A stretch of DNA of 21,325 bases, taken from a virus. The notes beneath the pieces were generated by a model. The model saw only the letters and a list, made by a program, of their open reading frames with translations, ran no database searches and was not told the DNA's origin. Each line of letters opens with the position of its first letter. The first letter of the stretch is position 1. The stretch is taken from positions 1 through 21,325 of IMG/VR virus record IMGVR_UViG_3300044712_001997, one strand, 5' to 3'. Shown one piece after another: positions 2,746-19,780 of the stretch. Made by a program: the position numbers and the translations under genes.

Positions 2746-3976
2746 AGAATATTTAGACTATCAGTTACATTTCGATAAACGTGTCGCAAAGGAATTCGGG
2801 CTTCCGGAGGCGGTTGTTATAAATAAGTTTCAGGCGCTGATCGGCAGCAATAAGGCACTCGGCAAAAATTATTATCAGGGACGCACCTGGACGTATAATT
2901 CATACGAAGAGTGGGTGGATAATGATTACTTCAGCTGTTTCTCAAAAGAACAGATGCGCCGCATACTGGAGAGCCTGCTGGAACAGAAGATCCTAATGAA
3001 GGGTAACTTCAATAAACGCCGCAACGATAAAACAAACTGGTATGCTTTTGTTGAGGAAGAAAAATGGATTGAGAGAAAATCACCGATCGCTAATTATGGT
3101 TCTGACCGGCCGGATGGATTTACTCTGCCGAATTCAGCAGAGACCATTGACACAGGGCTGTTCAATTCTGATACATTGCCGGAATCGGCAAAGCAAGAGG
3201 ACGCTCTGCCGAATTCAGCAGACCAATTAAAAGACTCTGCCGGAACCGGCAATGAGACTGCCGAAAACGACAAAGCGATCGGTCGAAATCAACAGATGGA
3301 TCTGCCGGATTCGACAAACCATTACCAATTAAGTCCTACTAAATCCAACGATGTCACTGTTATTAACGGCGACGCCGGCAAAAATACTTTTCAAATGCTC
3401 ATTGGTAAAACTGCCATGGAAGCTGTTAACGACGGAACTGCAGATAAACTTGCTTTTGAATTTAACGATGGTAATCTGGTCGACGAAAAGATCGTGCAGC
3501 TCTTCCGGATCTTCATTAAGGACGCTCAGCCCCACTTTTCGAATATCGATAAAATAAAATTTGAATTGCTGAATGATTCTCGCATTGAACTCAGCCGCAA
3601 AGCCTGCTGGGTGATCATAATGCTGGCATTCTTTGAATATCCCGGATGGAATTCGAAATACCAAAATGTGGGCTCTCTCTTAGGCAAAATTAAAAAGCAG
3701 AAAGATCTCTTTGCTCAGAAATATTACGATGGCCAGAAGCAATTTGAAGCGGCCCGGGATAGAATGAAAGAAAGAGAACAGAGTAAAATTAAAAATGAAG
3801 AAGCCATTAATCAGATCCTCAAAGAGGCTGCTGATAAATTGGAGCGCTATAAACATAAATTAAATCTTCGGCAGGTAGAGGAAATAACCAACCTGATCAG
3901 GAACAGAAACTATCTGCAGGCAGACAGTAAATTAATTGAATATCTCGAATTGAATGAGGGAGAGGAAGCAGCATGA
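2735..3976 (+). CDS. phage replication-initiator-like winged-helix protein
   Basis: The start is inferred as GTG 2735 (protein begins MATKEYLDYQ), 5 bases after GAGGGT at 2725-2730. Upstream in-frame ATGs lie inside the previous gene. The 413-residue product has an N-terminal winged-helix-like domain (about residues 5-115: VAKEFGLPEAVVINKFQAL, SKEQMRRILESLLEQKI, TNWYAF). This is the arrangement seen in phage replisome organisers and lambda-O-type initiators. A polar linker (about 130-200) contains LPNSAE, LPESAK, LPNSAD, LPDSTN, encoded by DNA repeats that I interpret as an origin. A helical domain follows (about 240-330), then a charged coiled coil. It sits among DNA-metabolism genes and overlaps the NinG-like gene by ATGA. 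Function is inferred. Confidence 0.65.
   Translation: MATKEYLDYQLHFDKRVAKEFGLPEAVVINKFQALIGSNKALGKNYYQGRTWTYNSYEEWVDNDYFSCFSKEQMRRILESLLEQKILMKGNFNKRRNDKTNWYAFVEEEKWIERKSPIANYGSDRPDGFTLPNSAETIDTGLFNSDTLPESAKQEDALPNSADQLKDSAGTGNETAENDKAIGRNQQMDLPDSTNHYQLSPTKSNDVTVINGDAGKNTFQMLIGKTAMEAVNDGTADKLAFEFNDGNLVDEKIVQLFRIFIKDAQPHFSNIDKIKFELLNDSRIELSRKACWVIIMLAFFEYPGWNSKYQNVGSLLGKIKKQKDLFAQKYYDGQKQFEAARDRMKEREQSKIKNEEAINQILKEAADKLERYKHKLNLRQVEEITNLIRNRNYLQADSKLIEYLELNEGEEAA
3124..3318 (+). repeat. six iteron-like 18-bp repeats (candidate replication origin)
   Basis: Six 18-mers fit the consensus TCTGCCGRATTCRGCARA, at 3124-3141, 3175-3192, 3205-3222, 3236-3253, 3257-3274 and 3301-3318. The first and third are identical. 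Each is a near-palindrome; the second has perfect arms TTGCCG/CGGCAA and the fourth TGCCGG/CCGGCA. Four copies are read as LPxSxx, while copies four and five are in another frame (SAGTGN, TAENDK), so selection is on DNA. The following 50 bases (3316-3365) are about two-thirds A+T by my count. Lambda ori has this arrangement inside gene O. Confidence 0.6.
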
Positions 3977-4410
3977 TTGATTCCAAGATCGGAACAACAG
4001 CAAGCAGCAAGAAAACACTCAAACGCCTGGCAAATAAATGCGAGAAGCTTTCACGCAAATACACAGCTCTCAGAGATCCCATCTGCCAGTGCGCCGACGA
4101 TAGTTGCCAGAAAACAACCGGTCTGGACTGGGCGCACGCAATAAGCCAGCGCTTTGAGAAGTTTAGATACAATCCGATAAATACAATGCGTTTAAACCAC
4201 GAATGTCATCTGGCCATAGATCATTCTCCGGAAAAGAAAAGACTGATGGATGAGCTGATGTTCAAACGTTTAAGCATAACGCAATTTGAAGAATGGACCC
4301 GGATGAGAATGGAATCATTCCTTCCATTCAAACCAACTATTGAGTGGTATGAAAAACAGATTGAGGAATTAACCAGGCTCATTGCGGAGGTGCAGCATGC
4401 TGAGTATTAA
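3973..4410 (+). CDS. NinG/Rap-like HNH-fold protein
   Basis: A 145-residue protein with the zinc/HNH layout of NinG-type recombination proteins: C38, C40 and C45 (CQCADDSC), D52-x2-H55 (DWAH), FRYNPIN at 64-70, and HECH at 76-79 followed by AIDHS. NinG (Rap) of lambda acts in phage recombination and is thought to be a structure-specific endonuclease. The N-terminal 35 residues are basic and the C-terminus helical. Start ATG 3973 overlaps the upstream stop by ATGA, directly behind the replication-initiator-like gene, which suits a replication/recombination role. A generic HNH endonuclease is the alternative. Confidence 0.6.
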   Translation: MIDSKIGTTASSKKTLKRLANKCEKLSRKYTALRDPICQCADDSCQKTTGLDWAHAISQRFEKFRYNPINTMRLNHECHLAIDHSPEKKRLMDELMFKRLSITQFEEWTRMRMESFLPFKPTIEWYEKQIEELTRLIAEVQHAEY

Positions 4411-17962: not shown

Positions 17963-18916
17963 ATGGAAAAAGTAAAATCAGCAGTCTTCGTAAAAATTGA
18001 GACCGTTTACGGAACAGATCCTACACCGGTTGAGGGAACGGACGCAATTGAATGCTTCGGCCAGCCGTCATTTGAATCGGTGACCGAGGCAAAGCCAAAC
18101 CTTATTCCCATCTCCACATTCGGAGAGCTGGCGCCGCTTATTGTAGGCAAGGCATATAAACTTAGCGGCATAAAAGTACCTCTGAAAGGAAGCGGTACAG
18201 CGGGCACGCCTCCGCGCATTGGTCCTCTCCTCAGGGCCATGGGTTTCTCGCAGACAGTTGATGGAATAATTAAAGTTACTTACGCTTTGCACTCAATATT
18301 CGAAGGCGAAAGCGTTACACTTTATTTCTGGTACGGTGGAACAAAACATATTCTTACCGGTTGTGTTGGTACCGGAAAGCTCGCGCTTGCAGCTGGAGAA
18401 GAGATGTTTCTGGAATGCGATATGACAGGCATATACGGCGGGGCCATTGCGGATGTTACATTCCCCTCACCGACCTTTGAAACCACAGCGCGGCAGATCT
18501 GGGATAACGCTCTTTTCAAGTTCACCCCGGCAGCTGGCAGCGATCTCGGTCTCATCATCAGCAAGTTCGATTTTGATCTGGGAGCCGAATTTAATCCGCG
18601 GCCGGATCCAAACGGCGCCTATGGAATTAACCGTTATTACATCAGCGATCGGAAACCTAAAGTAGGTCTCGATCCGGAAAAGGTAGCGCTCTCAACATTG
18701 AATCCGTACTCGCTGCATGAAGCTCAGACAGCCATTGCCATCGAAACCAAACCGGCAGGTACAGCCGGCAACCTGGTAGAGATTACAGTGGGAGGTGTTA
18801 CTCTCGACGCGCCGAAAGCGGGCAGCAGAAACAACGTAGCCACATGGGAACTCAGCGGCCAGTGCCGTCCGACCATTGCAGCCGGCAATTCTGAAATTGC
18901 AATAGTATTTAAATAA
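17963..18916 (+). CDS. major tail tube protein
   Basis: A 317-residue protein started at ATG 17963 behind AGAAGGA (17949-17955). It opens VFVKIETVYGTDPTPVEGTDAIE, a hallmark opening of siphophage tail tube proteins (K.E..YGTDPTP...DA), then GLEAPLIVG..YKLSG.KVPLKG-type strands, FEGESVTLYFWYGG, a DMTGIYGG turn and a long beta-rich C-terminus. At 317 residues it is somewhat larger than lambda gpV (246), with an apparent Ig-like C-terminal part (AGNLVEITVGGVTLDAPKAG). It forms stacked hexamer rings of the tail tube. G/GT and tape-measure genes follow, as in lambda. Confidence 0.8.
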   Translation: MEKVKSAVFVKIETVYGTDPTPVEGTDAIECFGQPSFESVTEAKPNLIPISTFGELAPLIVGKAYKLSGIKVPLKGSGTAGTPPRIGPLLRAMGFSQTVDGIIKVTYALHSIFEGESVTLYFWYGGTKHILTGCVGTGKLALAAGEEMFLECDMTGIYGGAIADVTFPSPTFETTARQIWDNALFKFTPAAGSDLGLIISKFDFDLGAEFNPRPDPNGAYGINRYYISDRKPKVGLDPEKVALSTLNPYSLHEAQTAIAIETKPAGTAGNLVEITVGGVTLDAPKAGSRNNVATWELSGQCRPTIAAGNSEIAIVFK

Positions 18917-18954
18917 CACTTCGACTCGGCCGGCTTTTGCCGGCCGGCTCAGTG
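18917..18954 (+). repeat. REP-like palindrome, copy 2, interrupted by a GC hairpin
   Basis: CACTTCGACTC (18917-18927) and GCTCAGTG (18947-18954) match the two halves, in opposite orientation, of the element at 17036-17057. Between them sits a perfect hairpin CGGCCGGC-TTTT-GCCGGCCG (18927-18946). No T-run follows, so it is not a normal terminator. Confidence 0.35.
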
Positions 18955-19016: not shown

Positions 19017-19059
19017 GCAAAGAGCCGCATGGGCGTTCTAACCCTTCGCCCGGCGGCTC
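19003..19059 (+). other. competing hairpins upstream of the G-like gene
   Basis: GAGCCGC (19022-19028) pairs with GCGGCTC (19053-19059), and GGGCG (19031-19035) with CGCCC (19047-19051), giving one long stem. GAGCCG can instead pair with CGGCTC (19003-19008) at the end of the possible leader peptide. The two folds are mutually exclusive. There is no clear T-run after either stem. The G-like gene starts 41 bases downstream. Confidence 0.4.
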
Positions 19060-19100
19060 GGATTTATAAAGGGTAAAAAAAAGTAGAAGGGAAATAGAAC

Positions 19101-19523
19101 ATGGCACTTGAATTAGATATTTGCGACAATAATGAAATAACCATCTATCATGTTGCGAGCGGCAGTAAGATAAAATTTTTCTACACCAATCCGGATACTG
19201 ATGTTCACATTCAATATAAATCCGCAATTCTTCATGCTTCCGCAAAGGGCAAAAGCATAGAAGACGTTCAAAAAATCCAGATCGAATTTGGTTTAAAACT
19301 CATCAAGGGTATCCGCAAAGGAGATTTTATTCTTAATAAGAAACAGATCTCTTCAGATCCCGCGGATCCGGATTATCTGGCAGACTGGAAAGAAGTTATA
19401 AAAAGAGTTGCAGGAAATATCATCATAAAATTTGTTGAACAAATACTGGATTCTTCCTGCTATGCTATAAAGGATGAGGCCGCGAATGCTGATTTTTTCG
19501 CCGGCAGTACGAATCCTTCTTAG
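19101..19523 (+). CDS. tail assembly chaperone, short form (lambda gpG-like)
   Basis: A 140-residue protein starting MALELDICDNNEITIYHVAS, with AGAAGGG before ATG 19101. It sits between the tail tube and tape-measure genes, the fixed position of lambda gpG, whose length is the same. Residues 30-120 are helical (SIEDVQKIQIEFGLKLIKGI, YLADWKEVIKRVAGNIIIKF). gpG-type proteins coat the tape measure during tail assembly and are absent from the virion. The last codons contain the slippery site, so a fraction of ribosomes should shift to make the long form. Assignment rests on position, length and the frameshift site, not on a clear sequence match. Confidence 0.75.
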   Translation: MALELDICDNNEITIYHVASGSKIKFFYTNPDTDVHIQYKSAILHASAKGKSIEDVQKIQIEFGLKLIKGIRKGDFILNKKQISSDPADPDYLADWKEVIKRVAGNIIIKFVEQILDSSCYAIKDEAANADFFAGSTNPS

Positions 19524-19780
19524 CGCAGTTTCCGCCGGAGAGCTGGCAGGAATGCCTTAAGCGGCACGGTGGAAGCGAGAGAGAAGCGAGGGCGGTTTTT
19601 GATTCTTATGAATTGAAAAAGTATGAACCGGATGCGCGATTTGAATTTACTTATTGGATTAACGAATTGCTGAATAGCGGGATTACACTCAACAAAAATG
19701 ATTTGACAATCGAACAATGGTTCTATTTATCACGGTTCAAGGAAGCACTTTTAATGATTCACGCAAAACCAAAAGTATAA
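19101..19780 (+). CDS. tail assembly chaperone, frameshift long form (gpGT-like)
   Basis: Reads 19101-19499 in the first frame and then continues at 19499 in the -1 frame to TAA 19778-19780, for 226 residues. The T-like extension is about 93 residues: RRQYESFLAQFPPESWQECL, then RHGGSEREARAVFDSYELKK, FEFTYWINELLNSG, LTIEQWFYLSRFKEALLMI. It has no usable start codon, and it carries the helical-rich, Trp/Phe-containing character of lambda gpT. It ends three bases before the tape-measure ATG (19784). In lambda the T part binds the tail tube protein while G binds the tape measure. Confidence 0.7.
19493..19499 (+). promoter_or_regulatory. -1 ribosomal frameshift slippery heptamer
   Basis: T-TTT-TTC is in the correct register: the zero-frame codons are GAT TTT TTC, so both tRNAs can slip back one base. 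The downstream frame opens at 19493, immediately after an in-frame stop (19490-19492), and runs to 19780. Possible stimulators are GCCGGC (19500-19505) with GCTGGC (19542-19547, one G-U) and a GGCA-GGAA-TGCC hairpin further on. Confidence 0.75.

Follow-up and report, generated by a model that had tools for sequence, protein, structure and literature searches.

A predicted lambda G/GT-type -1 frameshift in the tail chaperone gene of an uncultured phage

In the window analyzed here (the complete IMG/VR record IMGVR_UViG_3300044712_001997, 21,325 bases; a possibly fragmentary virus record), the gene just upstream of the tape measure gene is predicted to yield two products, a short protein (G) and a longer G-T fusion. 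Based on sequence comparison, programmed -1 ribosomal frameshifting of the lambda G/GT type is the best explanation for this locus, and we assign it a probability of about 0.93. Most ribosomes would stop at a TAG codon (19521-19523) and release G, 140 aa in length. In a minority, the P- and A-site tRNA-Phe on TTT TTC would re-pair with TTT TTT, one base upstream; these ribosomes would then read CGC CGG CAG TAC and onward for 93 codons, producing a fusion of about 230 aa. Following the lambda model, G would coat the tape measure protein, the T part of G-T would recruit tail-tube subunits, and the ratio of G to G-T would be set by the frequency of slippage. In systems of the G/GT type, the two products arise in unequal amounts, and tails require both although neither is present in virions. 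We infer the slippage, its frequency and the roles of both proteins, the roles being drawn from gene position and from lambda.

The locus would extend the conserved tail-chaperone frameshift to an uncultured phage lineage whose chaperone family is not represented in Pfam or PHROGs. It also offers a natural comparison of two heptamers, TTTTTTC and CCCTTTT, set in phage backbones that are nearly identical. Standard gene callers miss the T domain here, and several GenBank phages likewise have no annotation of the fusion.

Gene order and reading frames

On the plus strand, the window has the head-to-tail order terminase, portal, major head protein, head closure, tube-like protein, G with its extension, and tape measure (Table 1). 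The best named tape-measure PHROG match to the last of these has an E-value of 3.7e-47, and the protein also matches Pfam PhageMin_Tail (2.7e-8). The protein encoded upstream of G matches Pfam Phage_tube_2 with an E-value of 4.6e-5 and 23.6 bits, under the curated cut-off of 27, and PHROG 290 with an E-value of 1.8e-5. Based on these matches, G and its extension lie between a probable tail tube gene and a certain tape measure gene. A GC-rich hairpin (CGGCCGGC-TTTT-GCCGGCCG, 18927-18946) is located just 3' of the tube gene, in a terminator-like position and without a clear T run.

Table 1. Features of the predicted frameshift locus in the window, and heptamers at the corresponding place in more distant phages
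Feature	Position	Strand	Basis	Heptamer
Probable tail tube (major tail) protein, upstream of G	17963-18916	+	Pfam, PHROG	
G, putative zero-frame tail assembly chaperone ORF, 140 aa	19101-19523	+	ORF list, relatives, gene position	
-1-frame TGA stop, abuts heptamer	19490-19492	+	sequence	
Putative slippery heptamer, X XXY YYZ register	19493-19499	+	sequence; relatives	T TTT TTC
-1-frame extension, putative T-like part of GT, 93 codons + TAA	19499-19780	+	sequence; relatives; selection	
Tape measure gene, cut by contig end	19784-21325	+	PHROG, Pfam	
L005				AAAAAAA/AAAAAAC
L009				CCCAAAC
Synechococcus phage S-LBS1 (GenBank)	L013 1567-2288			AAAAAAC
Paracoccus phage Shpa (GenBank)	L014 1705-2336			AAAAAAG
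Butyrivibrio phage Arawn (GenBank)	L015 1344-1918			GGGAAAC

The initial annotation placed T TTT TTC in the correct register, and the G-frame codons at 19491-19499 (GAT TTT TTC) confirm that the heptamer follows the X XXY YYZ pattern. The first -1 codon after slippage would be CGC at 19499, joining ADFF to RRQY at the junction. The second frame, which is -1 relative to G and overlaps the end of G by 31 nt, is open from 19493 to 19780; the codons of the extension occupy 19499-19777, and its TAA stop is at 19778-19780. A TGA codon of the -1 frame lies directly 5' of the heptamer; therefore, the extension can be entered only at or after the heptamer. The extension has no start of its own at its head: the earliest ATG, GTG or TTG in its frame is a TTG at 19613, which falls within the conserved domain, and no ribosome-binding-site-like sequence was seen there. 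The frame ends 3 nt 5' of the tape measure gene. These observations agree with the earlier description of a 93-codon extension that lacks a start codon and directly precedes the tape measure, and that is missing from a plain ORF list; at a threshold of 60 aa, the list does not contain it.

G had also been described as a tail chaperone, and its position and organization point to this role, although G itself matches no known family. Searches of Pfam and PHROG with G and with the extension, singly and as alignments, identified nothing significant. AlphaFold models built from three sequences reached pLDDT values of 50 and 68, too poor for a fold search. Judged by these sequence searches, the putative chaperone family has no counterpart in Pfam or PHROGs, the libraries searched.

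Related loci and selection on the extension

We searched IMG/VR with the extension and the tape measure and identified two relatives, L002 and L003, giving three loci of the G/extension family; L002 and L003 share most of their sequence. Scans with the extension alignment, the tape measure alignment and the tube protein returned the same two contigs and distant tape measures, and a degenerate-DNA scan for EAANADFF with any codons returned L002 only. No relatives were found in genome_contigs scans with the extension or in a viral_contigs scan with G alone.

The window G aligns to G of L002 and L003 with 42-46% identity. L002 has the same heptamer, TTTTTTC (GCTGATTTTTTCG), and its extension has 54% aa identity to that of the window. 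Whereas the G genes of the window and L002 are 58% identical in DNA gene-wide, the heptamer region is the best-conserved 27 nt of G, with 25 of the 27 identical. In L003 (G 46% and extension 41% identical to the window), C CCT TTT occurs in phase in the overlap, at the same place as T TTT TTC in the window. All three loci have a canonical X XXY YYZ heptamer in phase inside the overlap, and both frames are kept as protein in L002 and L003. The slippery site of L003 has been exchanged for a different canonical heptamer rather than lost; the outcome that the initial annotation named as refuting, a disrupted heptamer in relatives that keep both frames, was not seen in either relative.

Upstream of the G start codon, the L002 and L003 backbones agree at 99.7% over 6,142 bp. 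Past this codon, G and the heptamer differ completely between the two, and similarity returns inside the extension (L010 6125-6571 against L011). G and the slippery site appear to have been replaced together between near-identical phages. The spacer before G in L002 (~3505-3575; also present in L003) contains repeated short motifs (AATAGTCAAATGTCAAAAGTCAATTC... GATTGACTATTGACTATTCAC) that do not occur in the window, and parts of these repeats recur inverted elsewhere in the L002 contig.

Five further phages, picked solely for their matching tape measures, are listed in Table 1. In all five, there is an in-phase heptamer with an open -1 frame that runs to the tape measure or its immediate vicinity. 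With longer overlaps of 100-124 nt, S-LBS1, Shpa and Arawn are more likely to contain a heptamer by chance. Their extensions are annotated as separate hypothetical genes or are absent, and there is no joined CDS. Neither G nor the extension had a TBLASTN match in the phages collection, and chaperone similarity to S-LBS1, Shpa and Arawn was not detected. The G-like gene of S-LBS1 is named as an ABC-transporter ATPase component, which is probably a misannotation.

The window is a metagenomic virus record and its junction lies in a homopolymer, as would be the case if an assembly or sequencing artefact, namely a miscounted T6, had split one normal gene. However, L002 comes from a separate dataset and has the same T6 despite the low DNA identity of its G, and L003 requires the same -1 shift at CCCTTTT, so that all three loci would need the same direction of error at a canonical heptamer. 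Five other phages, among them three GenBank isolates, show this layout as well, which further argues against an artefact; we consider an artefact extremely improbable. Transcriptional slippage on T6 would instead generate mRNAs with altered T count, from which the fusion would arise by standard translation. Bacteria and IS elements provide known cases of slippage on A/T runs (PMC5009743), and a T6 run is present here; however, the run is short, L003 has the same extension with CCCTTTT and no long homopolymer, and distant relatives use CCCAAAC or GGGAAAC. We regard this explanation as very improbable.

The initial annotation held that the extension cannot otherwise be translated, which is accurate for the window; in L002, by contrast, an ATG overlaps the G stop (ATGA, 4022-4025). 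This ATG would be consistent with independent translation of the extension, through re-initiation after termination or from a non-canonical start close to the stop codon of G, and re-initiation may occur in L002. No start is present at the matching place in the window or L003, where the first ATG, GTG or TTG is at least about 40 codons in, within the conserved domain. In addition, residues 5' of the ATG in L002 are conserved in the -1 frame (RRxYxSF). Separate translation is therefore a highly unlikely alternative to programmed frameshifting.

Of 6278 codon positions in the window's listed genes, 38 have an in-phase XXXYYYZ heptamer, and the chance of finding one in an overlap of ~10 positions is about 6%; a lone heptamer is thus weak evidence. 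The case for frameshifting is carried by the related loci, in which the arrangement recurs, and by the conservation of the extension as protein. Between the window and L002, the extension has a pN/pS of 0.40, compared with 0.41 for the neighboring tube gene, and its differences by codon position are 38/19/50. The -1 frame contains 0 stops, whereas the other two phases contain 6-9 per sequence and show no purifying pattern between the window and L002. Protein-like evolution of this stretch is seen in the -1 frame only. A nonfunctional remnant, either a decayed former fusion or a chance open frame, would draw on the chance of about 6% for the heptamer; however, the purifying selection on the extension, the 31 invariant columns in its three-sequence alignment (window, L002 and L003) and the recurrence in independent phages leave this reading with a probability close to nil.

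RNA structure near the heptamer and in the G leader

An RNA stimulator of -1 frameshifting would be a stable hairpin or pseudoknot 5-9 nt downstream of the heptamer. Considering nested folds only, structure downstream of the heptamer was not significant at the three loci (z = 0.26, 0.59 and -1.53), and the downstream consensus fold was weak. We also weighed an SD-like sequence (AAGGATGAGG, 19470-19479) located 5' of the heptamer as a possible stimulator; the encoded residues can explain why it is conserved, and we do not claim it as such.

The leader of G (19022-19074) contains a strong hairpin, GAGCCGC...GCGGCTC (z = -4.26). The hairpin loop, ACCCTT (19041-19046), could base-pair with AAGGGT (19069-19074) a short distance 3' of it, suggesting a possible H-type pseudoknot. 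The element is kept in L002 (ACCCTT at 3462-3467, AAGGGT at 3489-3494) and in L003, with a compensatory change in the stem. It has no Rfam match, and the only IMG/VR contigs that contain it besides the window are L002 and L003. This conserved leader element may be more unusual than the frameshift. A broader scenario combines a T TTT TTC frameshift that operates without a stimulator, a chaperone family unrelated to known ones, exchange of G and the heptamer as a unit, and perhaps level tuning by a conserved pseudoknot in the G leader; we view this combination as doubtful.

Comparison with known frameshift systems

The heptamer had been noted as unlike that of lambda, and this is correct: lambda G/GT uses G GGA AAG, compared with T TTT TTC in the window and C CCT TTT in L003. 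However, a heptamer that differs from lambda's is not novel in itself. A systematic study in E. coli by Sharma et al. counts H_HH.U_UU.Y among the efficient heptamers; its selection of shift-prone motifs contains U_UU.U_UU.C as well as C_CC.U_UU.U, and the former is also listed among the motifs of IS elements (PMC4066793). The -1 frameshifts of IS elements on U_UU.U_UU.C share the heptamer of the window but occur in genes for transposition proteins, and IS-element sites can carry a pseudoknot stimulator (PMC4066793), whereas nested folding found none at the window site.

Among tailed phages, S-LBS1, Shpa and Arawn share with the window the in-phase heptamer and the open -1 extension ahead of the tape measure; their heptamers are A-rich or GGGAAAC in place of T TTT TTC, and their tape measures are 28-40% identical to that of the window over part of the length. 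Other chaperone frameshifts of tailed phages, in the HK97-like cluster (PMC3711429) and the SEA-PHAGES set (PMC10885494), have the same gene order and -1 logic with various heptamers. Unlike these, the putative chaperone family of the window has no Pfam or PHROG match.

The lambda G protein interacts with the tape measure protein, and the T part of GT with the major tail protein. G outnumbers GT by about 30:1, and the arrangement is widely conserved despite the low sequence similarity of such genes (PMC5009743). The lambda chaperone work is that of Levin (1993) and Xu (2004, 2013, 2014), as cited in PMC5009743. A sequence relation between the lambda pair and that of the window is not detectable, and the products of the window are predicted from sequence. 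The lambda-like organization recognized in the initial annotation is borne out by gene order, the -1 frame, the in-phase heptamer and the conservation of both frames; as in lambda G/GT, the predicted pair is flanked by a probable major tail protein gene and the tape measure gene, its extension has no start of its own, and the shift would occur at an X XXY YYZ heptamer.
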